NCBI GenBank assembly: GCA_016931455.1
Contig: JAFGES010000129.1
Location: 1-64,000, forward strand
DNA length: 64,000 nucleotides
Direction of reading: 5' to 3'
DNA from: Desulfobacterales bacterium
GTDB lineage: Bacteria; Desulfobacterota; Desulfobacteria; Desulfobacterales; JAHDSC01
Under the pieces are notes generated by a model. That model was given only the letters and a program-made list of their open reading frames with translations. It did not search any database and was not told the origin of the DNA. Below are positions 3,396-58,151 of this stretch, in pieces. The translations under genes and the position numbers were made by a program. Each line of letters starts with the position of its first letter. Position 1 is the first letter of the stretch.

Positions 3396-4310
3396 TTAGG
3401 TATGGTCAAGCCTTGTAATACCCTCTTTCCTTGCATCCTGCAAAGCCTTTTCATACTCTTTTTGTGATAAAAATCCCGAAAGTTCCTCAACATCGGAGGC
3501 CCTACCACACGGCCGATATTGCGACATGATATTGACATAGCTACGCGTTGAAATTTTACTCGCAATAAATCGCATGATTTCGCGTGTTCCCGCTAGCCCA
3601 TTGGGCAAAACCAAATGCCGTATCAAAAGTCCACGTATAGCAAGGCCGGTTTCATCAATAACTAGGTCTCCCACCTGACGGTGCATTTCAATAAGGGATT
3701 TTCGAGCCATTTCCGGATAATCACTTGCCTGAGCTGTTCTCACAGCGACTTTCGGATCCCAAAATTTAAAATCAGGCATGTAAATATCAATCACACCTTC
3801 AAGCAACTTCAGAGTCTTTGGGTCATCATAGCCGCTGGTATTGTAAATCAAAGGGACACAAAGTCCCTGCCGAACGGCTATTTCAACAGCCGATAGAATT
3901 TGAGGAACCACATGCGATGGTGTAACGAAATTAATATTATGACAACCCACATTTTGTAAATTCAGCATCATATCAGCTAGTTGCTCATTTGATACGGTTT
4001 TGCCTTGCCCTTGATGGCTGATTTCATAGTTTTGGCAAAAAATGCAAAGCAGGTTACAATGTGTAAAAAAAATAGTGCCGGAGCCGTTTCTGCCCACCAA
4101 GGGTTTCTCTTCGCCAAAATGAGCTTGATAACTTGAAACGACAGCTTTTTTACCTGTTTTGCAGACACCCCTTTGGTCGGATAGCCGGTCGACTTTGCAT
4201 TTTCGAGGACAAAGGGTGCAGCAACGCAATATATTGTAAGCCTTGATGATTTTATCCTTCAGTAGCCCCTTTTGAAACGTCTTGATGTATACGGGTTCAA
4301 ATGATTGCAT
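3396..4310 (-). CDS. PflX-type radical SAM protein linked to feoAB
   Basis: 304 aa from the ATG at 4310. This start has GGAGGTG 11-17 bases upstream and aligns with the start of a paralogue at 54407; the open frame extends to 4415, but that would overlap feoB. The radical SAM CxxxCxxC is at Cys85, Cys89 and Cys92 (HCNLLCIFCQN). Upstream cysteines (CTLCPRKC, residues 31-38, and Cys50) suggest a second metal site. The family resembles pyruvate-formate-lyase activating enzymes (COG1313, PflX), whose substrate is not established. It is 50 bp downstream of feoB. Compared with the paralogue it lacks about ten C-terminal residues. Confidence 0.82.
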   Translation of the reverse strand: MQSFEPVYIKTFQKGLLKDKIIKAYNILRCCTLCPRKCKVDRLSDQRGVCKTGKKAVVSSYQAHFGEEKPLVGRNGSGTIFFTHCNLLCIFCQNYEISHQGQGKTVSNEQLADMMLNLQNVGCHNINFVTPSHVVPQILSAVEIAVRQGLCVPLIYNTSGYDDPKTLKLLEGVIDIYMPDFKFWDPKVAVRTAQASDYPEMARKSLIEMHRQVGDLVIDETGLAIRGLLIRHLVLPNGLAGTREIMRFIASKISTRSYVNIMSQYRPCGRASDVEELSGFLSQKEYEKALQDARKEGITRLDHT

Positions 4311-4360
4311 GCTAACTAACCACCTCCTGCAAAGATATCCGATTTCACCCGGGAACCTAA

Positions 4361-6547
4361 CTATCCCAAACCCATCATTCGACATCCTTGATAAATCAAA
4401 AATGCCACGCCCCATGCAATCAACGTGCTGTATCCCATGCTAAAAAGCGTCCATTTTAAGGATCCCGTTTCCCGTCTTATTGTGGATACAGTCGCCAGGC
4501 ATGGAAGGTATAATATAACAAAGACCATCATAGAAAGTGCAGCCGATGATGTCATATTAGATGCTAAAAGCGCTTTTTTGAGGGCATCGGATTCCACTTC
4601 GGCTTCAGTGGCATATAGAATTCCCAAGGTACTGACAACAATTTCTTTTGCAACAAAACCGCTCAGAAGTGCCACGCTGCCACGCCAATCAATACCAATG
4701 GGAGAGAATAAGGGTTCAAAAGCTTTTCCAATTTTGCCCATATAAGATTTTTCGATCTTTTCAGCTTTTTGAGCCATTAAAATTTTTGATATGGCAGCAT
4801 CCCGTTTCTTTTCAATCGAATCTTTTGTATTTTCATTACCGGTGGTAAATTCGGTAAGATAATTTGCTTTTACTTTTTTAATTTGGGATTCATAATCAGT
4901 TGAATACGTAATGTTTCGCGGAAAAGCTGAAAGCGTCCAAATAATAATCGATCCGATTAGAATGACACCTCCCATTTTTTTAAGAAACATTTTGCTGCGG
5001 TCCCACATATGAATAAGTAGACTTTTAATCATTGGGACTCTGTAAGGGGGCAATTCCATAACAAATGGCGCATCCACTCCCTTTAGAAGGGTTGAACGAA
5101 ACAAACGGCCGCTTAAAATGGCCGTTAGGATCCCAATAAAATAAATCGCAAAAATTACTGTTCCGGCTTTTGCGCTGAAAAAAGTTCCAGCAAGGATGAT
5201 ATAAATAGGCAATTTAGCCGAACATGACATAAAAGGCGTGATAAGGATGGTAAGAATCCGGTCCTTTTCACTCTCCAGCGTACGAGTCGCCATAATAGCG
5301 GGGACATTGCAACCAAAGCCCATCAGCATGGGAATGAAAGATTTTCCATGAAGCCCGATCAGATGCATGATTTTGTCCATCAGAAAAGCGGCTCTAGCCA
5401 TATATCCGGTATCTTCAAATATTGCGATACAGAAAAAAAGAATAAGAATATTGGGTAAAAAAATAATCACACTACCGACACCGGCAACAATTCCGTCTAA
5501 AAGAAGATTTTTTAAAAGTGAATTTGGGAGCAAACCGTCTAATGAGGCTGAAAACAAGTTAATGCCGCTGTCGATCCACTGCATGGGATAAGCTCCAAGC
5601 GAAAAAGTCATCTGAAACATAGCCCAGATAAAAAAGATAAAAATCGGAAACCCGAGAAATCGGTTTGTCAAAATGAGATCGATGTTACGTGATATATCAA
5701 CTCGCTGCCTTGTAGAAGTTGTCATCACCTCCTTAATGATCCCAACAATAAATCCATACCGTTCATCAGTCATTACAATCTCAGGGTCATCATTAAAACG
5801 GTCGATTAGATATTTACGCTGCAATTGGGCTTGCTGTAGAATTTCATGGCCGCTATTTCCCACCTTCTGCAGAATACGTTCCTTTATAATTTTATCATCT
5901 TCAAGGAGTTTGATTGCCGCCCATCGGGTATTATATAAAAATATATTATTTTTCTTTTCTTCAATAAAGTTTTGAAGTTGTGCAATGGAATGTTCAATAT
6001 CCTGACTATATTTAACTCTTCTTGACTGCGGCACAACAGCATTCGACTCTCCTAGTTCGATGGCTTTCTTGAGGAGAATATCAATCCCTTGGTTTTTATT
6101 TCCAATGGTAAACACAACCGGTACATCAAGAAGTTCGGAAAGCTTATCCGCATCAATTTGGATTCCCCGTGAACGAGCCAGATCTGCCATATTTAAAGCG
6201 AATAAAACCTTACAGCAATCCAGTTCTCTGAGCTGAGTGGCCAGATAAAGACTTCGTTCCAAGTTGGATGAATCGATAATGTCGATCACAACATCGGGGC
6301 ATTCTTCAAGAATAAAATTACGTGCAACAATTTCTTCTATGGAAAAAGGGGTAAGACTGTAAGTTCCAGGAAGATCGATAATTTTTAGGTTATAACCATG
6401 TTTATGGATAATACCTTCTTTTTTTTCTACTGTAACTCCCGGCCAGTTACCGACCTTTTGTCGAGTTCCGGTGATATTGTTAAATAAAGTCGTTTTTCCC
6501 GAATTGGGATTACCAGCCAGTGCTATGGTAAGACTTTTTTGTTGCAT
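4361..6547 (-). CDS. feoB: Ferrous iron transporter FeoB
   Basis: 728 aa inner-membrane Fe2+ transporter. The N-terminal G domain has G1 GNPNSGKT (12-19), G3 DLPG (58-61) and G4 NMAD (about 119-122), followed by a helical GDI-like region and a polytopic membrane domain with the Gate motifs (FEDTGYMARAAF, GFGCNVPAIMATRTLE). Start at 6547 is the ATG immediately after feoA, 11 bp downstream. Length is normal. A hydrophilic insertion between membrane segments (about 553-600) is typical of the family. Confidence 0.97.
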   Translation of the reverse strand: MQQKSLTIALAGNPNSGKTTLFNNITGTRQKVGNWPGVTVEKKEGIIHKHGYNLKIIDLPGTYSLTPFSIEEIVARNFILEECPDVVIDIIDSSNLERSLYLATQLRELDCCKVLFALNMADLARSRGIQIDADKLSELLDVPVVFTIGNKNQGIDILLKKAIELGESNAVVPQSRRVKYSQDIEHSIAQLQNFIEEKKNNIFLYNTRWAAIKLLEDDKIIKERILQKVGNSGHEILQQAQLQRKYLIDRFNDDPEIVMTDERYGFIVGIIKEVMTTSTRQRVDISRNIDLILTNRFLGFPIFIFFIWAMFQMTFSLGAYPMQWIDSGINLFSASLDGLLPNSLLKNLLLDGIVAGVGSVIIFLPNILILFFCIAIFEDTGYMARAAFLMDKIMHLIGLHGKSFIPMLMGFGCNVPAIMATRTLESEKDRILTILITPFMSCSAKLPIYIILAGTFFSAKAGTVIFAIYFIGILTAILSGRLFRSTLLKGVDAPFVMELPPYRVPMIKSLLIHMWDRSKMFLKKMGGVILIGSIIIWTLSAFPRNITYSTDYESQIKKVKANYLTEFTTGNENTKDSIEKKRDAAISKILMAQKAEKIEKSYMGKIGKAFEPLFSPIGIDWRGSVALLSGFVAKEIVVSTLGILYATEAEVESDALKKALLASNMTSSAALSMMVFVILYLPCLATVSTIRRETGSLKWTLFSMGYSTLIAWGVAFLIYQGCRMMGLG

Positions 6548-34946: not shown

Positions 34947-36344
34947 CTATTCAAACACAAAATCATGGTCTATGACGGTTCCTGCTTTTATAACCGCCGG
35001 AGTATTGCCGCGATTAATTATGTTGACGTTTCCTGTTACTTTTACATTTGATTCAAAGAATACATCGCCTTTGATACGTAAAGATTCACAATGAATTAAA
35101 GATGGGGCTCCTTCTTTGAATCTTTGATCAAAAAAATCGATCTTCCCGTAATATCGAGGATCAAGATCAATCTTTATTGTATATAGTGTTCTCTTCGGGT
35201 TTATAATTAAATTATTCTCTTTCGAAAAAATAAAGCAATCCGACCGAACAGCTAAAAGATCATTACATTTTTTAACAGGAAAAAAACGGGATCTGGGAAC
35301 TTTAATCGCCGTTGCTCCTTCAAAAAGGGATATTGCAGCACCCATGGCCGTTTCAACCTGATATACTTGTGGGCTGGTTTCATCTCTTGGATCCAATGTT
35401 TTCGGATTTAATATCATTGGGAGTTCAATTGTTCGGTGTTTTTCAATGAGGTTTTTTAAAAATTTCAGATTAATCCATAGATTATTGGTATTGAAAAACC
35501 GGAACCGATGAATATCTGTAAAAGCATCAAGTTCCGCCTCCGGGCATTGTGCAATTTCACGCAGAATCAGATGGCCTTTTTTATGTCTAGCGAGATGTCC
35601 CCCTTTTAAATCATCCGGCGTTTTTTCCGCAACCTCCATCATAAATGGAAACCGGTTTTCTGAAAAGTACCCGAGAAGGGATTCATCCATCGTTGCCCCC
35701 AGATTATCCGAATTAGATATAAAGGCATAGATAATACCCTGGTCGAGCAGTTTTTTCAGCATTCCCGAAGTATATAAAGCAGTATAAATGTCCCCATGTC
35801 CCGGAGGATTCCATTCAAGGTCTGAATTTTTAGGCCACGTTGCCGGAACAAGTCCTTCCTTCAATATTTTAGGAAACTTATGTTGTAAGAAGAGCAAAGG
35901 AAATCTAGATGGATTGAGCTTTGAAAGGGCAGCCTGTGTATCTTGATGGGTGCTGAAGCTATTCATCAGCGCCAAGGTGACTTGGTGAGTTTCAGCTTGA
36001 TGTACGGTCAATTCAAGGAATGTTTTCCCGTTTTTGACTTCCAGAAGGGACTTAGCCTTGGTAAGCCCCATACTCGTACCAAGGCCACCGTTTAAAACAA
36101 TCATGACTGAATTCTTTAATGTGTCCCTGCCGGCTTCCGCATAACCTTGAATCTTGTTTAAGCTTTCAATTTCGTTTGGATCTACCGGCACAATGTCCTT
36201 GTCACGGACAAGACCGGTTTCACCTTCAATAATTTGGCGATAATAATAAGCAAAGGTATCAATGACAATGCGGTCAATACCCTCCTTTTCCATTTTTGAA
36301 ACAAAAAAGGAAAGATTTTCGGCGGCATCTAAATATTTCAACAT
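34947..36344 (-). CDS. UTP-glucose-1-phosphate uridylyltransferase (eukaryote-type UDPGP family)
   Basis: 465 aa of the UDPGP family (UGP2-like) rather than the bacterial GalU family. Conserved NGGLGTSMGLTKAKSLLEV nucleotide loop, PPGHGDIYTAL, and ISNSDNLGA are visible, and the C-terminal left-handed beta-helix region is recognisable. It makes UDP-glucose from UTP and glucose-1-phosphate. AGGAAACTT lies near the ATG. Next gene on the same strand (upstream) is ilvE, 44 bp away. Other UDP-sugars as products are possible. Confidence 0.87.
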   Translation of the reverse strand: MLKYLDAAENLSFFVSKMEKEGIDRIVIDTFAYYYRQIIEGETGLVRDKDIVPVDPNEIESLNKIQGYAEAGRDTLKNSVMIVLNGGLGTSMGLTKAKSLLEVKNGKTFLELTVHQAETHQVTLALMNSFSTHQDTQAALSKLNPSRFPLLFLQHKFPKILKEGLVPATWPKNSDLEWNPPGHGDIYTALYTSGMLKKLLDQGIIYAFISNSDNLGATMDESLLGYFSENRFPFMMEVAEKTPDDLKGGHLARHKKGHLILREIAQCPEAELDAFTDIHRFRFFNTNNLWINLKFLKNLIEKHRTIELPMILNPKTLDPRDETSPQVYQVETAMGAAISLFEGATAIKVPRSRFFPVKKCNDLLAVRSDCFIFSKENNLIINPKRTLYTIKIDLDPRYYGKIDFFDQRFKEGAPSLIHCESLRIKGDVFFESNVKVTGNVNIINRGNTPAVIKAGTVIDHDFVFE

Positions 36345-38022: not shown

Positions 38023-39057
38023 TCAGTAGCTTTCGTAATACAGTCCTTCCCAATTGGAAGGGTTGCTTAAACGATAATCAATCTCAACGCCAAAAAAGTC
38101 TGCAATGGGCTTAAATATTTCAGGAGTATTGGCCTGGATGGCTCTTGCAGTTTTTAAAATCACTTCCAAGCCGTTCTTTGTGATTTTTCCCAATGGTTGC
38201 CGGCATCTCCCGGAAGGCATACCAAGAATTGACATGAGCACTTTCGTTGCAAGTGGATTTCGGGCACGGCATACGACTTCGCCATAAGGCGTTTTTTCCT
38301 TAGTCTGAACCGTCACCAAATCAAAAAGGGGGCTAAGGTTCGTCATCAGCTTTCGGGCTCTTTCTTTATTCCCTTGCCTCAAAAGGTGTACCATTTCAGA
38401 AACCGCACCGGGAGCAATGTTGGAAGCGACCGAAATGACACCCGCAGCTTGTATCTCAGGGTCAACCATCATCTCATAAGTTAACGCATCATCACCGGAT
38501 AGGATGGTAAAATCAGCTCCGCAGAGTTTCCTTGTCTTTTTCATATTTTCAATATTTCCCGTCGCCTCTTTCACCGTATTGACATTCTTAAACTCCTTGT
38601 GAAGAATAGCAATATCGGCCGGTAAAAGCTGAGTACCGGTACGACCGGGTATGATGTAAGGAATGATCTGAATATCCGGAAACTTAGTCGCGATCGGGGC
38701 AATATATTCTCTTCGAATTTCCAGTGAACTGGGTCCATTATAATAGGGATCGACCAATAAGACAGCATCAACTCCGGCATCGGCGGCATGTTTGGTAGCC
38801 AAAAAAGCTTCCTTAGTGTTATTGCTTCCGGTCCCTGCAATACAAAAACATTTATTTCTTGTCCTTTGAGCAATATTTTCGATGATTTTATTATGTTCAT
38901 TCCAGGCCAAAGAGGGACTTTCTCCTGTCGTTCCGACGGCCAATATACCGGATATCCCGTTTTGTATTTGAAAATCAATCAACCGATTAAGACCTTCATA
39001 TTCGACGGTATCATTTTTAAATGGAGTTACAAGCGCTGTGTAACATCCTGTGATCAT
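38023..39057 (-). CDS. dapA: Dihydrodipicolinate synthase family protein (DapA)
   Basis: 344 aa from the ATG at 39057, which has AAGGGGG upstream; the longer open frame to 39123 is not needed. It condenses pyruvate and aspartate semialdehyde in lysine synthesis. Catalytic GTTGES, Tyr in DPYYNGPS, Tyr in PYIIPGRTG and Schiff-base Lys in VKEATGN are present. It is about 50 residues longer than the usual enzyme, the excess being the C-terminal PIADFFGVEIDYRLSNPSNW region. Other aldolases of the family remain possible, but the residues favour DapA. Confidence 0.87.
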   Translation of the reverse strand: MITGCYTALVTPFKNDTVEYEGLNRLIDFQIQNGISGILAVGTTGESPSLAWNEHNKIIENIAQRTRNKCFCIAGTGSNNTKEAFLATKHAADAGVDAVLLVDPYYNGPSSLEIRREYIAPIATKFPDIQIIPYIIPGRTGTQLLPADIAILHKEFKNVNTVKEATGNIENMKKTRKLCGADFTILSGDDALTYEMMVDPEIQAAGVISVASNIAPGAVSEMVHLLRQGNKERARKLMTNLSPLFDLVTVQTKEKTPYGEVVCRARNPLATKVLMSILGMPSGRCRQPLGKITKNGLEVILKTARAIQANTPEIFKPIADFFGVEIDYRLSNPSNWEGLYYESY

Positions 39058-50398: not shown

Positions 50399-50800
50399 TC
50401 ATATCTCAATTTCGGCATTTATATCGGATTCTTTTTTCATTCGATCATTAAAATTTGCCACAGCTGCTTTCAGCGTATTCGCAGCCAGCAATGCACAGTG
50501 ACGAGATGCCTCCGGCAATCCGCCTAAGGCTTTCAGCACATCTTCCTGCTGGAGTTGAGATGCCTCTTTCAAGTTTTTGCCCTCAGCTAATTGTGCAGCC
50601 ATGCTCCCACTGACAATGGATGAACCACACCCATCGGTCGTAAAGCTCACCTTGGTAATACGATTTTCTTTGATCCACAACCAATATTCCATCGTATCTC
50701 CGCAAGGGCCCGTGATCCTGGCATGGCCGTCCGGATCCTCCAACATTCCAAAGTTTGAGGGCAATTTAAGAGGATCCGCATTTACTTGATTTTCCGACAT
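50399..50800 (-). CDS. NifU/IscU-like iron-sulfur scaffold protein
   Basis: 133 aa with the three scaffold cysteines: GPCGD (about residue 33), DGCGSS (about 58) and RHCALLA (about 102). Last gene of the sigma-54 operon; its start overlaps the end of the second MinD-type gene by 19 bp. Its place next to two ferredoxin-ATPases and NifX proteins suggests Fe-S or Mo-Cu cluster assembly. The named ORP operons of Desulfovibrio do not, as far as I recall, include NifU here. Confidence 0.86.
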   Translation of the reverse strand: MSENQVNADPLKLPSNFGMLEDPDGHARITGPCGDTMEYWLWIKENRITKVSFTTDGCGSSIVSGSMAAQLAEGKNLKEASQLQQEDVLKALGGLPEASRHCALLAANTLKAAVANFNDRMKKESDINAEIEI

Positions 50801-51666
50801 AATTCATTCCATCCTTTCCTTATATCCTCAGCAACCGGGTTGTCACCATTTTCCACCACCGCTTTTGCTTTGATTTGCGCAGCGGTGATCGCATGATCAT
50901 AACGGATACGACCGATTACTTCAGAATTATATCGTAACGCTTTTTGTTCGATTTGCTCTGTCATTTGGGGGTTCAAATCCCACTTGTTTACGCAAACAGC
51001 TGCTGCAATGCCGAAATGTCGAGTCAACATTAGAACACGCTCTAAGTCGTGAACACCGGATAGAGTCGGCTCTGTTACAACCAAAACAATAGAGGCACCG
51101 GCAATCGAAGCAATAACCGGGCAACCGATGCCTGGGGGGCCATCGACAATAACAAGTTCCAATCCTTTTTCCGTTGCAATGTTCTTTGCTTCTTGACGCA
51201 CGATGGTAACCAGCTTACCGGAATTTTCAGCCGCGATCGCCAAACGAGCATGCACCATGGGACCAAAACGGGTTTCCGATACAAACCACTCACCGCATAT
51301 CCTCTCAGGAAAATCAATGGCTTTTGCCGGGCAAAACTCGACGCATACGCCACACCCCTCACAAGAAAACGGCTCGATGCTGAAAGATATCTTGCCGTCT
51401 CTTGTGCTGACTTTTTTTACAGCATCAAAACGACAGTGTTCTAAACAAGCACCACACCCCACACAGTCAGCCGATCGAATGATAGCTTCTCTCCCGCTTT
51501 TAAACTCGCTACGACGCTGAATCTTTGGAGAAAGAACCAAATGTAAATCGGCCGCATCCACGTCACAGTCTGCAAGAACCGCATTTTTGGCCAAAGCGGC
51601 AAAAGATGCAACTATACTGGTCTTTCCGGTTCCGCCCTTACCACTAATTACAACTATTTCCTTCAT
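50782..51666 (-). CDS. MinD/ParA-type ATPase with two ferredoxin clusters (second copy)
   Basis: 294 aa from the ATG at 51666, with GAGG upstream; the longer frame to 51774 is not needed. P-loop GKGGTGKTS (deviant Walker A, about 9-17), two 4Fe-4S motifs (CVGCGACLEHC and CEGCGVCVEFCP) inserted near residue 65, and the DGPPGIGCPV switch. It is paralogous to the gene upstream, like the pair found in ORP clusters. It probably loads or inserts clusters in an ATP-dependent step (inference). Confidence 0.9.
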   Translation of the reverse strand: MKEIVVISGKGGTGKTSIVASFAALAKNAVLADCDVDAADLHLVLSPKIQRRSEFKSGREAIIRSADCVGCGACLEHCRFDAVKKVSTRDGKISFSIEPFSCEGCGVCVEFCPAKAIDFPERICGEWFVSETRFGPMVHARLAIAAENSGKLVTIVRQEAKNIATEKGLELVIVDGPPGIGCPVIASIAGASIVLVVTEPTLSGVHDLERVLMLTRHFGIAAAVCVNKWDLNPQMTEQIEQKALRYNSEVIGRIRYDHAITAAQIKAKAVVENGDNPVAEDIRKGWNELCRKIK

Positions 51667-51691
51667 AAATGCCTCGTTTCCGTCAAAGCGC

Positions 51692-52546
51692 TCAATGTCC
51701 CCGGGCTTCGTGATAGTATTCGGCAATACGGTCGAACATTTTCTGAAATCCGCTTTTGAATTCAGGCAACACATTGATAATCAATTGCCCTCGCGAATAA
51801 GCTTCGGCAATTCTTCGGTCATCCGGAATCTCCAGTAAAATTGGAATATTTTCTTGTCGACAGTAATCAACAACTTTCAGATCACCTGTATCCGCCCTGT
51901 TGATACATACCCCAAAAGGAATTTTCAACTCACGCATGGTTTCCACAGCCAAACTAAGATCATGGAGACCAAATGGAGTCGGCTCGGTCACAAGCACCAC
52001 GTAATCGCTGTCTTTTACCGCGGCAATGACCGGACAGGAGGTACCCGGCGGGCAATCAATAATTGTGATACCATTGGCCGCTACGTTCTGTTTTACAGCA
52101 CGTATCAGCGGTGGAGACATCGCTTGCCCGATGTTTAAACGTCCATGGACAAATTCAATGTTATCATATCTTCCGAATTCAACGACCCCGATCTCCTGCC
52201 GGATTTCCGAGATCGCGCCAGTCGGACAGATCTTTGTGCATCCCCCACAGCCATGACAAAGCTCGGGAAAAACAAGCGGCTTTGTCTTCAGCGAAGCAAT
52301 GGCATGGTATTGGCATATTCGACTGCATTCACTGCAGGCAATGCACTTATTTTCATCCACTTCGGGGACCGGAATACCAACTATTTCGCAACGTTGGATT
52401 TCAGGATTTAAAAATATATGGCAATTCGGCTCCTCAACATCGCAGTCAAGTAGCCTTACGGAATCGGCAATGGAAGAACAGGCAAGGTTAACCGCTACAG
52501 TCGTTTTACCCGTACCCCCTTTACCTGAAGCAATCGCAATAATCAT
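51692..52546 (-). CDS. MinD/ParA-type ATPase with two ferredoxin clusters (first copy)
   Basis: 284 aa. SGKGGTGKTT Walker A (7-16), ferredoxin clusters CIACSECSRIC and CHGCGGCTKICP at about 68-100, and DCPPGTSCPV. Four bp after the NifX gene and 25 bp before the second ATPase, so it is in the same transcript. In Desulfovibrio the equivalent ATPases belong to the ORP complex implicated in cell division (established knowledge); the function here is inferred. Confidence 0.9.
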   Translation of the reverse strand: MIIAIASGKGGTGKTTVAVNLACSSIADSVRLLDCDVEEPNCHIFLNPEIQRCEIVGIPVPEVDENKCIACSECSRICQYHAIASLKTKPLVFPELCHGCGGCTKICPTGAISEIRQEIGVVEFGRYDNIEFVHGRLNIGQAMSPPLIRAVKQNVAANGITIIDCPPGTSCPVIAAVKDSDYVVLVTEPTPFGLHDLSLAVETMRELKIPFGVCINRADTGDLKVVDYCRQENIPILLEIPDDRRIAEAYSRGQLIINVLPEFKSGFQKMFDRIAEYYHEARGH

Positions 52547-52550
52547 ATCT

Positions 52551-52916
52551 TTACCAGTGTCCTTCTACATTGGGGGCGCTTGACGGTTTCAGTCCACCGG
52601 CCTTAAATCGCTCGACGGCTTCACCAACAGTCCCTTCCGCTCCTGTGATCACCTGAATACCGGCGGCTTGCAGTGTACGAAACGCCTTTGGGCCGCAATT
52701 CCCGGTGATAAGGTACTGCGCTCCAAGCCGTACAACGGTTTCCGCGGCTTGAATACCGGCACCTTGAGCAGCATTAAGATTCTGGGTGTTATCGACGACT
52801 TCAAAGACACCGGTTTCAGTATCCAACAAAATAAACTTTGCAGCACGGCCAAAACGTAGGTCTATTGCAGCCCCAAGCGTCTCACCGATAGTTGTCACAG
52901 CAATCTTCATCATCAT
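52551..52916 (-). CDS. NifX/NifB-type dinitrogenase iron-molybdenum cofactor-binding (ORP-like) protein
   Basis: 121 aa single NifX domain: KIAVTTIGETLGAAIDLRFGRA, then TVVRLGAQYLITGNCGPKAF with the conserved GNCGP loop and an ERFKAGGL end. Its ATG overlaps the stop of the DUF5320 gene by 4 bp (52913-52916), an ATGA junction. This is the best candidate for the metal-carrying ORP, whose Desulfovibrio homolog binds a Mo-Cu sulfide cluster. Confidence 0.9.
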   Translation of the reverse strand: MMMKIAVTTIGETLGAAIDLRFGRAAKFILLDTETGVFEVVDNTQNLNAAQGAGIQAAETVVRLGAQYLITGNCGPKAFRTLQAAGIQVITGAEGTVGEAVERFKAGGLKPSSAPNVEGHW

Positions 52917-53284
52917 TCCTCATCTGCCTGAGCCCTCTTTGCTTCCAGATTCTCAAGCGCAACTAATCGTTTCTTAATTTCACCAAGCTGTCTTTGCAGG
53001 TTGTCAGCTTGCCCTTTCAGAAATTGCTTCTCCATTTCTATATTGGGTTCTATATTCGGTGCTGCATAGGGCTCGGCGTTACCTGGATAACCTCGCATCC
53101 ACCCCGGGAGACCGGTAGCATAATACATGTGTCGCCAACCTCTCCCACGACCAGCACCTGAAATATATCCGCGGCCTCTAACCACGTTGGTAAACCCTGG
53201 CCCATTAAATCCTGCACAGTATCCGGCTGCACGTCCCGTCATGGAACCTATTCCCATGGGTCCGGTTCCGTCTCCTCTTGGCAT
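52913..53284 (-). CDS. DUF5320 protein
   Basis: 123 aa. It starts MPRGDGTGPMGIGSMTGRAAGYCAG, the DUF5320 hallmark, followed by Gly/Arg-rich sequence and a C-terminal coiled coil (QLGEIKKRLVALENLEAK). GAGATACG precedes the ATG. It lies between two NifX proteins in the operon. The same MPRGD start is fused to the C-terminus of the first gene. A metal-binding or scaffolding role is likely but unproven. Confidence 0.8.
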   Translation of the reverse strand: MPRGDGTGPMGIGSMTGRAAGYCAGFNGPGFTNVVRGRGYISGAGRGRGWRHMYYATGLPGWMRGYPGNAEPYAAPNIEPNIEMEKQFLKGQADNLQRQLGEIKKRLVALENLEAKRAQADEE

Positions 53285-53329
53285 TTTTCGTATCTCCTTT
53301 TTCTTAAAATTCTTGAAAGACCGTCAGCC

Positions 53330-53944
53330 TTATTGGTTTCTCCCGCGACCTTGACCACGTCCTTGACCCCGACCTTGACCTTGACCCCGACCCCGATTTT
53401 GACCTTGATCATCCGGCCCATCAGCGGGTTTTTGGCCCTTTTTTCCACAAGGTCCAAGCCCTCGACCCGTTCTCGGACCTTCGCCCCGCGGGCCTGTTCG
53501 ATCTCCTCTCGGCATAATGTTTCTCCTTTCCTGCTCTAAGCATTTCTGCCCTAAACTTGTTTTTCTCTTATCCGATCCATCGTGCCCAACTCGAAACTCC
53601 TTACAAAAAGGACAGCATCCCTGTATCCCCAGAATCGGATTCGGCAATGTGCCTGCCATGAAAGCCTCAATGGTTTGCTCGATGTCACCGGCAATAAAAG
53701 GAATCGTTCGAATCCCATAAACAGCCAGCATTCCCGCCAGTGGTCGGGATATACCGCCGCAAACCAAAATTTTAATCTGCAACTGCGCCAGTTTACCGAC
53801 CTTTCCAACCGGATCTTCTTCCACGAGGGCTTCTTTGCTTTTGCTGATGATTTGACTGTTCTCGATTTCCAAAATTATTATCTGTCGTGCAACATCAAAC
53901 ACAGGTGAAATCCGCCCGTCCCATACAGCAAAGGCTATTTTCAT
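53330..53944 (-). CDS. NifX domain fused to a DUF5320-like Gly/Arg-rich tail
   Basis: 204 aa. Residues 1 to about 120 are a NifX domain (FAVWDGRISPVFDVARQ and ILVCGGISRPLAGML), with CCPFC at about 113-117. At residue 144 a second MPRGDRTGPRGEGPRTGR start begins a DUF5320-like tail ending in repeats of GRGQGQ and RGQGR. The inner ATG (53515) has AAAGGAG at good spacing, so the tail could also be translated alone. First gene of the sigma-54 operon. Confidence 0.85.
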   Translation of the reverse strand: MKIAFAVWDGRISPVFDVARQIIILEIENSQIISKSKEALVEEDPVGKVGKLAQLQIKILVCGGISRPLAGMLAVYGIRTIPFIAGDIEQTIEAFMAGTLPNPILGIQGCCPFCKEFRVGHDGSDKRKTSLGQKCLEQERRNIMPRGDRTGPRGEGPRTGRGLGPCGKKGQKPADGPDDQGQNRGRGQGQGRGQGRGQGRGRNQ

Positions 53945-53976
53945 CAGGCCTTACCTCCATTTAGATAATACATTTA

Positions 53977-53992
53977 AGCAAGGTATGTGCCA
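53977..53992 (-). promoter_or_regulatory. Sigma-54 promoter of the NifX-MinD-NifU operon
   Basis: Minus strand TGGCACATACCTTGCT: GG and GC are separated by exactly 10 bases, the strict -24/-12 spacing. It lies about 33 bp upstream of the first start codon with GGAGG in between. A sigma-54 activator gene is 1.7 kb away. Confidence 0.8.
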
Positions 53993-54153
53993 TACTCAGA
54001 GCATAAGTGCGGAAATCTTAAATGATTCGTCGTATCAGCTAGTTTACGGTTGGAATCCCTAAATGGGGATATTTTTAAATCGCTATCATGCGACAGTATC
54101 CTTATTTAATAGTTGCAATATGCTACCATATAAATAAGCGTTTAAGGAAACGG

Positions 54154-54166
54154 AGACAATCGTCTC
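54154..54166. promoter_or_regulatory. Possible activator-binding palindrome (GAGAC-N3-GTCTC)
   Basis: GAGAC (54154-54158) and GTCTC (54162-54166) form a short inverted repeat, about 115 bp upstream of the plus promoter and 165 bp from the minus one, a normal place for an enhancer site. There is only one copy, so the call is tentative. Confidence 0.3.
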
Positions 54167-54278
54167 TATTGTAAATAAGTTCAAGTTTATATACATTTAC
54201 TGTGCTATTGAGTTAAAAATATTTATTACAATTTGTTAATTGTGTGTTGTTAATTCAAGTAAAAATATTTAAATTTTA

Positions 54279-54295
54279 TTGGCTAAAAAATTGCA
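54279..54295 (+). promoter_or_regulatory. Sigma-54 promoter of the PflX-type radical SAM gene
   Basis: TTGGCTAAAAAATTGCA: GG (54281-54282) and GC (54293-54294) have the required 10-base spacing. A start about 12 bases on would give a leader of roughly 100 nt before the ATG at 54407. Confidence 0.7.
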
Positions 54296-54346
54296 TACAA
54301 ATACGCAAACAAGTGACCAAATACATATTAACAACTATCAAAATTT

Positions 54347-54388
54347 TTACAATATCTGAAAAAGCATCAAGTTTTTTAGATATTGTAA
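54347..54388 (+). promoter_or_regulatory. Leader hairpin before the radical SAM gene
   Basis: Left arm 54347-54363 pairs with right arm 54372-54388 over 17 bp (one G-U in RNA) with an 8-base loop. It ends 18 nt before the ATG, next to the ribosome site AAGGGAA. No T tract follows, so it is an mRNA structure or protein-binding palindrome rather than a terminator. Confidence 0.65.
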
Positions 54389-54406
54389 TCATAAGGGAAT
54401 CCAGCC

Positions 54407-55345
54407 ATGGCATCTTTTGAACCCGTTTATATTAAAGCTTTTCAAAGCGGTTTACTTCACGAAAAAGTTAAGAGCGCAAACAAAATATTAAATTCATGTG
54501 TCTTATGTCCACGTGAATGCCGTATCAATCGGATAGAGGGGCAACTCGGCATTTGTAAAACCGGCAAAAACGCCTGGCTTAACGCTTATAAAGCACATTT
54601 AGGAGAAGAAACACCTTTGATCGGAAAAAACGGTTCCGGTACTTTTTTTTTCACCCATTGTAATCTCCTATGCATATTTTGCCAAAACTATGAACTCAGT
54701 CATGAAGGCCGAGGAAAAGAAATCTCCAATTCTGAAATGGCTGAAATGATGCTGATTTTACAAGAGGCGGAATGCCCCAATATTCATTTTATTTCACCGA
54801 CTCATGTAGTACCTCAAATTCTTTCCGCATTAGAAATAGCCGTTCAAAAGGGACTATCCATCCCTCTCGTTTATAATTCCAGCGGTTATGAAAGTATTGA
54901 AACTTTAAAAATTCTTGACGGCATCATTGATATCTATATGCCGGACTTTAAATTTTGGGATCCCGACATCTCAGAAAAATTATGTAGCGCCTATGATTAT
55001 CCCGAAAAAGCCCGAGCAGCAATAATTGAAATGCATCGCCAGGTCGGAGATCTTGTCCTAGATGAATCAGGTAAGGCGCATCGCGGACTTTTACTCAGGC
55101 ATCTGATCATGCCTTCCGGTTTGGCCGGTACGCAAAATATCATGCACTTTGTCGCGCAGGAAATATCACCGAACACTTATGTGAATATCATGCCGCAATT
55201 CAAACCTCACGGCCGATCCTATGAAGTCAAAGAGCTAATGAATTGTATCACTGAAGACGATTATGCCGATACACTAAAAGCAGCCAGAGAGGCAGGTATT
55301 CATCGAATTGATCCACGGCCGGGAAAAGTTTTTATGGGTTTTTAA
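54407..55345 (+). CDS. PflX-type radical SAM protein under sigma-54 control
   Basis: 312 aa, collinear without gaps over the first 94 residues with the feo-linked paralogue at 3396. Cys31, Cys34, Cys38, Cys50 and the radical SAM Cys85, Cys89, Cys92 are all conserved (HCNLLCIFCQN). The ATG at 54407 is preceded by AAGGGAA. Divergent from the NifX/MinD operon with its own -24/-12 promoter, so it is likely coregulated. It may activate a glycyl radical or modify another protein; unknown. Confidence 0.85.
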   Translation: MASFEPVYIKAFQSGLLHEKVKSANKILNSCVLCPRECRINRIEGQLGICKTGKNAWLNAYKAHLGEETPLIGKNGSGTFFFTHCNLLCIFCQNYELSHEGRGKEISNSEMAEMMLILQEAECPNIHFISPTHVVPQILSALEIAVQKGLSIPLVYNSSGYESIETLKILDGIIDIYMPDFKFWDPDISEKLCSAYDYPEKARAAIIEMHRQVGDLVLDESGKAHRGLLLRHLIMPSGLAGTQNIMHFVAQEISPNTYVNIMPQFKPHGRSYEVKELMNCITEDDYADTLKAAREAGIHRIDPRPGKVFMGF

Positions 55346-55677: not shown

Positions 55678-57078
55678 CTATTGAGATTTAGGGGAACGGA
55701 AACGTCCGTCTTTTTCAGGTAGGGTAATGCCGAGATTTTTTATTTTACGAAAAAGAGTGCTTTTGTGAATGCCCAGTTCTCGTGCAGTCGATAGACGGTT
55801 ATAGTTATTGCGTTTAAGTGCTTCCTTTATGGTCTGCACCTCTACGCTTTTTAAGGTCGTATTCATATCTCCCTTAACCTTAGCCGGCGAAACTTTCGGT
55901 GAAATCTTCAGCATGAAATCTTCAGGTAGATGTTGCGGCTCAATCCACCCATCTGTACATAATACAAAGGTATACTCGATGATGTTCTCCAACTCTCGAA
56001 TGTTACCGGGATAATCATATGTCAGCAGGATTGCGATCACTTCCGGGCTCAGACCCAAAATGGATTTGCCCTGCAAACGGTTAAATCGGGTTACAAAATG
56101 ATCGATCAACATTGGAATGTCTTCTCTTCTTTTTCTGAGAGGCGGCAATTCGATTCGGACAACATTGATCCGGTAAAACAGATCCTGCCGAAAAAAACCT
56201 TGTTTCACTTGTGCGGCGAGGTCTTTGTTCGTGGCGGCAATCACCCGGACATCCACAGAGACGGATTTTGTGCTACCCAATGGTTCAAATGTTTTCTCCT
56301 GCAAAACCCGTAGCAACCTTACTTGCAAGGCAGGGCTGATCTCACCGATTTCGTCGAGCAACAATGTACCGCCTTCGGCAAGTGCGAAACGCCCCGGCTT
56401 ATCCTTGTTAGCCCCGGTAAAAGCACCGGCCTTATATCCGAATAGCTCCGATTCCAAAAGGTTGTCCGGTAGCGCCCCGCAGTTGACTGCAATCATCGGC
56501 TTGTCCCGGCGAATGCTGAGATTATGGATCGCCTTTGCCAACAACTCCTTACCGGTCCCCGTCTCACCTTGAATAAGAACCGTACTGTTGCTGGTAGCCA
56601 CCTGAGGAAGCACATCAAATATCTTACGCATCGCCGGACTCCGGCTAACGAGGTCACCCACCTGAAAACGGCTTTTGAGCTCTTTACGCAATTCTTCGAC
56701 CAAGCTCAGATCACGAAAGGTTTCAGCACCGCCGACGATATTTCCGTCTTCATCCCGCAGCAGCGCTGTGGAAACACTTATAGTAATGCGTTTGCCCGAG
56801 GCATTGATAATAAAAGCGGACTTGTTAATGATAGGAATTCCCGACTCAATCGTTTGCCGAAGGGCGCAATCCGCCTCACACATACTAGCTCGAAAAACCT
56901 CGCAACAGCGCTTTCCAATTGCCTCTGTGCGGGAAATTCCCGTAATCTCCTCAGCGGCTCGGTTAAAAGAAGTAATCTGCCAATTGAGATTCACAGTGAA
57001 AACTCCATCGGAAATGCTTTCAAGGATAATTTCGGTGGCGGTTTGGGGTGCCGGGCGCGTATATTTCTTATGACTCAT
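55678..57078 (-). CDS. Sigma-54-dependent transcriptional activator with a cysteine-rich PAS domain
   Basis: 466 aa. Order: PAS domain (about 10-120) containing a Cys-rich stretch RCCEVFRASMCEADCALR, AAA+ domain with Walker A GETGTGKE, the sigma-54 contact GAFTGA, Walker B GGTLLLDEIGE, and a C-terminal Fis-type HTH (STARELGIHKSTLFRKI). No receiver domain, so it probably senses a ligand or redox state through the PAS Cys. Genomic position and matching promoters make it the regulator of the adjoining operons, as in the Desulfovibrio ORP system. Confidence 0.92.
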   Translation of the reverse strand: MSHKKYTRPAPQTATEIILESISDGVFTVNLNWQITSFNRAAEEITGISRTEAIGKRCCEVFRASMCEADCALRQTIESGIPIINKSAFIINASGKRITISVSTALLRDEDGNIVGGAETFRDLSLVEELRKELKSRFQVGDLVSRSPAMRKIFDVLPQVATSNSTVLIQGETGTGKELLAKAIHNLSIRRDKPMIAVNCGALPDNLLESELFGYKAGAFTGANKDKPGRFALAEGGTLLLDEIGEISPALQVRLLRVLQEKTFEPLGSTKSVSVDVRVIAATNKDLAAQVKQGFFRQDLFYRINVVRIELPPLRKRREDIPMLIDHFVTRFNRLQGKSILGLSPEVIAILLTYDYPGNIRELENIIEYTFVLCTDGWIEPQHLPEDFMLKISPKVSPAKVKGDMNTTLKSVEVQTIKEALKRNNYNRLSTARELGIHKSTLFRKIKNLGITLPEKDGRFRSPKSQ

Positions 57079-57338: not shown

Positions 57339-58151
57339 AAACCTAAACAGAGAATCGGCAATGATTTTATGAGAAAGGTGGGCCAAGAGATTAACTCTCC
57401 CAGTCTGATTGCCAATGCCGAACATATCCGGGTCGATATGTTCGGCAATGCAGCTGTATTGGTTGGACTTTTATCAAGCTTCATCGATGTGGACTTAGAC
57501 CGAATTATCGCTTTCATTATTGTGGCCATTATCGCCTGGGCCGGGGGCAAGATTCTTATCGACGGTATTCGTGTTCTTCTAGACGCATCTTTGGATTACA
57601 AAACACTGAGTTCGGCTGAAAAACTGATTCTTGCCGAATCTCAAGTTATCGACGTTCAAAATCTCATGGATCGGAATTCAGGCCGTTACAAATTTATCGA
57701 AGCAAATATCATACTGAAGACGCATGACTTGGAAAAGGCATACCATATAGCGCATCGAATTGAAGAAAATATACGAAAACAGATAAAAAATGTCGACCGA
57801 GTGCTTATTTACTTTGAGCCGACCCAAAAAGAAAACCTTATCTATGCCTTGCCCCTAAAAGATGTCAAAAAACAACTCATCTCCGATCATTTTGGAGAGG
57901 CCCCTTTTTTTAGCCTTGTTACTGTAAAAATAAAAAACAGAACGGCTATAGAGCAAAAAATTATTGAAAATCCCTTTACCCATGTGAAATCCGGAAAAGG
58001 CATTTTGGTTGCAGAATTTTTAAATAAACATTCAATTGACTTTATTATTACTAGAAAAACCTTTGATGGAAAAGGACCATTTTATGTTTTTGCAAATTCT
58101 GCTGTGGAAAATTTAATTACTGAAGAAGAAAGCCAAAAAACTTACTCCTAA
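57339..58151 (+). pseudogene. 5'-truncated cation diffusion facilitator with NifX-like C-terminus
   Basis: An open frame from 57339 (stop TAA at 57336), ATG at 57369, 260 aa. The first 70 residues match the last part of a CDF membrane domain (INSPSLIANAEHIRVDMFGNAAVL, two membrane segments), followed by the CDF cytoplasmic domain and a NifX-like C-terminus. The first four helices and the first metal-site half are missing upstream. It is likely a remnant cut off near the activator gene, or a minimal two-helix protein. The NifX domain ties it to this cluster. Confidence 0.7.

Follow-up and report, generated by a model that had tools for sequence, protein, structure and literature searches.

Candidate sigma-54 promoter and paired operator in the control region of an orange-protein-type operon from a Desulfobacterales genome

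Orange-protein complexes are Fe-S/metal proteins that are specific to anaerobes and whose role is unclear. As far as the literature examined shows, their regulation has been worked out only in Desulfovibrio vulgaris. In D. vulgaris Hildenborough (DvH), DVU2106 activates the two divergent sigma-54 operons orp1 and orp2 by way of palindromes, and IHF sites lie between the activator sites and the promoters (Fievet et al. 2014, PMC3897727). For DVU2106 the variant GAFTDA has been reported. The locus described here has in common with the DvH one the use of sigma-54 promoter(s) and of a single-component activator (PAS-AAA+-HTH) that is encoded in the cluster. It also shares the palindromic activator sites upstream of a sigma-54 promoter and, as targets, a NifX/Di-Nase/orange protein together with two MinD-ferredoxin ATPases.

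The window, as we call the full stretch of 64 kb that was analysed, comes from a sulfate-reducer-like bacterium and contains the intergenic region under study at positions 53945-54406 (462 bp), between a minus-strand operon (50399-53944) and a plus-strand radical SAM gene (54407-55345). Judged from the genes that it precedes, this region would hold the control elements for an operon of orange-protein type (NifX / MinD-ferredoxin ATPase / NifU). The first gene of the operon (53330-53944, minus strand, as are those that follow) encodes a NifX/Di-Nase domain with a DUF5320 tail (PF02579, PF17253). It is followed by genes for a DUF5320 protein (52913-53284; PF17253), a NifX/orange-protein-like protein of the Orp8 type (52551-52916; PF02579), a MinD/Mrp-type ATPase of the Orp3/4 type with a 2x[4Fe-4S] ferredoxin insert (51692-52546; PF01656, PF00037), a second MinD/Mrp-type ATPase with a ferredoxin insert (50782-51774; PF01656, PF12838) and a NifU/IscU-type scaffold (50399-50800; PF01592). 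In gene content the operon closely resembles the orange protein (ORP) clusters of Desulfovibrio. A MrpORP (Orp9) above the cut-off was not found in the genome, the best match of which reached 377 bits, against the curated 450, and was to the Mrp domain only. The radical SAM gene (PF04055) is PflX/AmmeMemoRadiSam-like and sits between the operon and the activator gene (55678-57078, minus strand), with which it is convergent. The activator has the order PAS, AAA+ with the GAFTGA loop and Fis-type HTH, and lacks a receiver domain. At 57369-58151 is a cation diffusion facilitator-like gene in which the transporter domain is short of its first ~125 residues; it has a C-terminal NifX (Nitro_FeMo-Co) domain, and the frame upstream of it has stops.

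A preliminary description of this DNA had placed two opposed sigma-54 promoters in the intergenic region, one facing each side, and both strings are indeed present at the positions and on the strands given for them, with the GG-N10-GC spacing. The one on the minus strand, ATGGCACATACCTTGCT (53977-53993, with the -24 GG and -12 GC elements), was well borne out as the promoter of the NifX operon. It was scored with a family position weight matrix (PWM), built from 21 orthologous promoters that precede nifX1 (the first gene of the operon) and having 14.1 bits as its lowest training score. The minus-strand site is the top match in the 64 kb, at 18.6 bits, the runner-up having 14.7, and TGGCACATACCTTGCT is the only string in the window that fits TGGCAYRN4TTGCW throughout. 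Among relatives of the same order, 23 loci have the activator gene and nifX1 as neighbours on one strand, the activator gene being immediately upstream. The gap between them is ~200 bp, with the promoter shortly before the nifX1 start codon, and a clean TGGCA-type promoter was found in 21 of these 23. The genome carries rpoN. One strong sigma-54 promoter, that at 53977-53993, is thus predicted to serve the orange-protein-type operon.

In most of the relatives the gap also contains AGTNGCA-N4-TGCNACT, an inverted repeat that is often present twice at a spacing of 32-33 bp; based on 27 sites with at most two mismatches, the copies begin ~99-116 and 124-148 bp ahead of the promoter. Two sites of this kind were found in the window. 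The proximal one (AATCGCTATCATGCGACA / TGTCGCATGATAGCGATT, 54078-54095), 102 bp upstream of the minus-strand promoter, has three mismatches and ranks second among all 18-mers of the window by the PWM for these upstream sites. The distal one (GGTAGCATATTGCAACT, 54111-54127), 134 bp upstream, has one mismatch and a spacer of 3 rather than 4 nt, and under a model with the 3-nt spacer it scores 20.2 bits in the 64 kb, the next best match having 7.8. Each site is therefore degenerate (the 3-nt spacer in one, the three mismatches in the other), with position and spacing right: the two are 32 bp apart, and both this spacing and the distances match the register seen in the relatives. The enhancer is, on this comparison, most probably the inverted-repeat pair 54111-54127 and 54078-54095, which lies nearer to the minus-strand promoter than the GAGAC/GTCTC palindrome proposed earlier. 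Upstream of the activator gene itself, where an operator would point to autoregulation as in DvH, none was found (best score -0.3). Possible IHF sites, each with one mismatch to WATCARNNNNTTR, lie between the enhancer and the minus-strand promoter (TATCAGCTAGTTT, 54033-54045, plus strand) and between the enhancer and the plus-strand candidate (AATTAACAAATTG, 54229-54241, minus strand). Two such sites in the region against 1.6 expected is the frequency of chance; genes of the HU/IHF type are present in the genome.

The claim that the activator at 55678-57078 controls both sides stood for the NifX operon, because of the conserved neighbourhood, the conserved operator and the intact GAFTGA loop, and is rated somewhat below even for the radical SAM gene. 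The HTH is conserved among the genomes that have the same operator, and the proposed pairing of the two rests on this co-conservation. The PAS domain keeps Cys58, Cys67 and Cys71 (CX8CX3C) without exception in 26 sequences, among them those of two loci of DvH layout that have GAFTDA, which suggests a sensor that holds a metal or an Fe-S cluster, the signal being possibly redox or Fe-S. In the mechanism that we infer, the activator would contact the inverted-repeat pair 54111-54127 and 54078-54095 and, from there, some 100-130 bp upstream of 53977-53993, would open the sigma-54 promoter by DNA looping, in which IHF may take part; the minus-strand operon would then be transcribed from the opened promoter. 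We hold it to be very likely that the activator, the operator pair and one strong sigma-54 promoter control the orange-protein-type operon, with the radical SAM gene as an insertion that is more probably read from another promoter.

The operator was also searched for in the whole genome. AGTNGCA-N4-TGCNACT has one perfect and 38 one-mismatch places there, and since these 39 compare with 52 for the reversed-pattern control, the repeat lacks specificity by itself and becomes informative only when a promoter goes with it. The presence of a promoter at the right distance was checked for the perfect site and for 20 of the 38 one-mismatch sites, chosen by eye, and two of these 21 had a strong sigma-54 promoter. 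One is on contig C109 (36.9 kb), where the perfect repeat is followed 114 bp on by the promoter TTGGCACACAAATTGCG, before an operon (L120 4737-6733, G000) that encodes a DUF5320 protein, a COG0731-like radical SAM protein of another subfamily, and a NifX+DUF5320 protein. The other is on contig C98 (103.4 kb), with repeats 100 and 132 bp before the promoter ATGGCACATGCTTTGCT, and its operon (L284 4360-5942, G000) has the order NifX / NifU / DsrE. Both are NifX-type operons, and NifX content had not been used in their selection. Like the promoter, the operator pair and the spacing at the locus under study, these two further modules emerge from sequence comparison. C109 has, in addition, a strong sigma-54 site at 38998-39014 (~9.0 kb in L120) that precedes an MBL-fold gene; this site lacks the operator and therefore probably belongs with another activator.

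The plus-strand half of the preliminary description fared less well. The string TTGGCTAAAAAATTGCA (54279-54295), the candidate for a promoter of the radical SAM gene, agrees with the sigma-54 pattern in its spacing only. By the family PWM it ranks 27th in the window with 7.65 bits, below all 21 family promoters, and it deviates at the two positions after GGC (GGT in one) where these promoters have A (21/21) and C/T (21/21). Genome-wide, TTGGCA-N6-TTGCW is enriched (12, against 2 for the reversed control), unlike TTGGCB-N6-TTGCW, the non-A class to which the plus-strand site belongs, with 11 against 13 in the control. Nor is the site conserved: it was absent from 14 regions upstream of radical SAM orthologs, a few of which are cut short by a contig end or have an imprecise gene start, and a promoter and an operator are both missing upstream of the orthologs with 71% and 68% identity, which occupy different places in other genomes.

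We lean slightly towards the reading in which transcription of the radical SAM gene starts, independently of the activator, at a promoter of the sigma-70 or another type within AT-rich inserted DNA, and a leader hairpin affects its expression. Consistent with this, the DNA upstream of the gene has 25% GC, the orthologs elsewhere lack a sigma-54 site, and many relatives have the radical SAM gene in other settings. The leader itself (54347-54388, plus strand) contains a stable AT-rich hairpin with a 17-bp stem that is 94% complementary (z = -4.2). What speaks against it is that clear sigma-70 hexamers were not found: on the plus strand between the enhancer and the radical SAM gene, no match to the sigma-70 hexamers reaches 9/12. 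Even so, the gene is probably read from a promoter other than 54279-54295. Of the hairpin as a repeated element, the genome holds no further full copy. A stretch of 23 nt at 35511-35533 resembles it (96%, E 7e-4, possibly by chance); this lies inside a UDP-glucose pyrophosphorylase-like frame, as read, to which the leader RNA would be antisense.

In the other reading both promoters work and are switched on together by one activator, like those of the divergent orp1/orp2, and they draw on a common enhancer pair. The DvH operons are its precedent, and an operon of the same regulon, that on C109, also has a radical SAM gene, if one of another subfamily. The plus-strand site keeps the exact GG-N10-GC spacing and is oriented towards the radical SAM ATG, which follows after 112 bp. 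A score as good or better is expected by chance on the plus strand of its own AT-rich 277-nt upstream region with a probability of 0.02 by the family PWM and of 0.001 by a generic sigma-54 PWM with assumed weights. The lack of sigma-70-like sites noted above also favours this reading, and with the enhancer pair located between both promoter sites, the weak site at 54279-54295 is within looping distance of it (162 and 195 bp) and may share it for the radical SAM gene. Against these points stand the missing A and C/T with the score under all 21 family promoters, the class at chance level, and the bare upstream regions of the closest orthologs; moreover, the arrangement was found at no other inspected locus, the radical SAM gene being next to the activator or nifX1 in none of ~55 radical SAM and ~60 orp-type loci. 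Because of the low PWM rank, the non-enriched class and the lack of conservation among the orthologs, we rate the chance that the plus-strand site may work as a sigma-54 promoter at somewhat below even, and with it that of the shared-enhancer arrangement. The doubt is of a statistical kind, and weak matches can function nonetheless.

The activator and nifX1 are adjacent in the relatives, including G001, the only further genome of this family in the comparison, and the flanks of the radical SAM gene are AT-rich, with 25% and 18% GC. The simplest reading of the adjacency is therefore a lineage-specific insertion, in which the radical SAM gene with its AT-rich flanks would have entered between the activator and the nifX1 control region. 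A paralog of this gene, 60% identical, is located at 3396-4415, directly downstream of feoB (4361-6547) and overlapping it. A further proposal goes beyond the insertion and strikes us as rather unlikely: that the gene was captured into the orange-protein regulon and is fired from the other side of the enhancer through a new AT-rich sigma-54 promoter, the activator sensing redox or Fe-S status via the CX8CX3C of its PAS domain.

Finally, the GAGAC/GTCTC palindrome, which the preliminary description had put forward as the enhancer, was rejected and is a most improbable binding site for the activator: it is a perfect 5+5 inverted repeat between both sigma-54 sites, and GAGAC-N4-GTCTC (54153-54166) is an exact match unique in the 64 kb, but inverted repeats of the 5+N4+5 form are at chance level in the 462-bp region (four, against ~1.0 expected from shuffles), GAGAC-N-GTCTC occurs in 0 of the 23 relatives' loci, whose activators have the same HTH, and it is missing from the C109 and C98 modules as read.

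The paired operator, whose copies are 32 bp apart and precede a sigma-54 promoter by ~100 and 135 bp, provides a searchable signature of the regulon in relatives of the same order, and the two further NifX operons in this genome make the function of the activator and its signal testable. Set beside the general design of NtrC/NifA-type sigma-54 promoters, the locus has in common the -24/-12 elements, a paired inverted-repeat enhancer ~100-150 bp upstream and the GAFTGA loop; it differs in having a PAS sensor of the one-component kind in place of a receiver domain, another operator, and Fe-S/orange-protein targets. Compared with DvH, there is one convincing promoter here and two there, the second one here being weak, and the activator, which in the relatives is directly upstream of nifX1, is separated from it in the window by the inserted radical SAM gene. 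The orp-like loci of DvH layout that were compared (L249 and L260) share the invariant PAS cysteines, whereas AGTNGCA-N4-TGCNACT was not found in them and their HTH differs, the contrast in the operator being judged on these loci. On the sequences compared, the locus appears to belong with the known Desulfovibrio orp/DVU2106 sigma-54 system, as a variant whose DNA-binding helix and operator are different.
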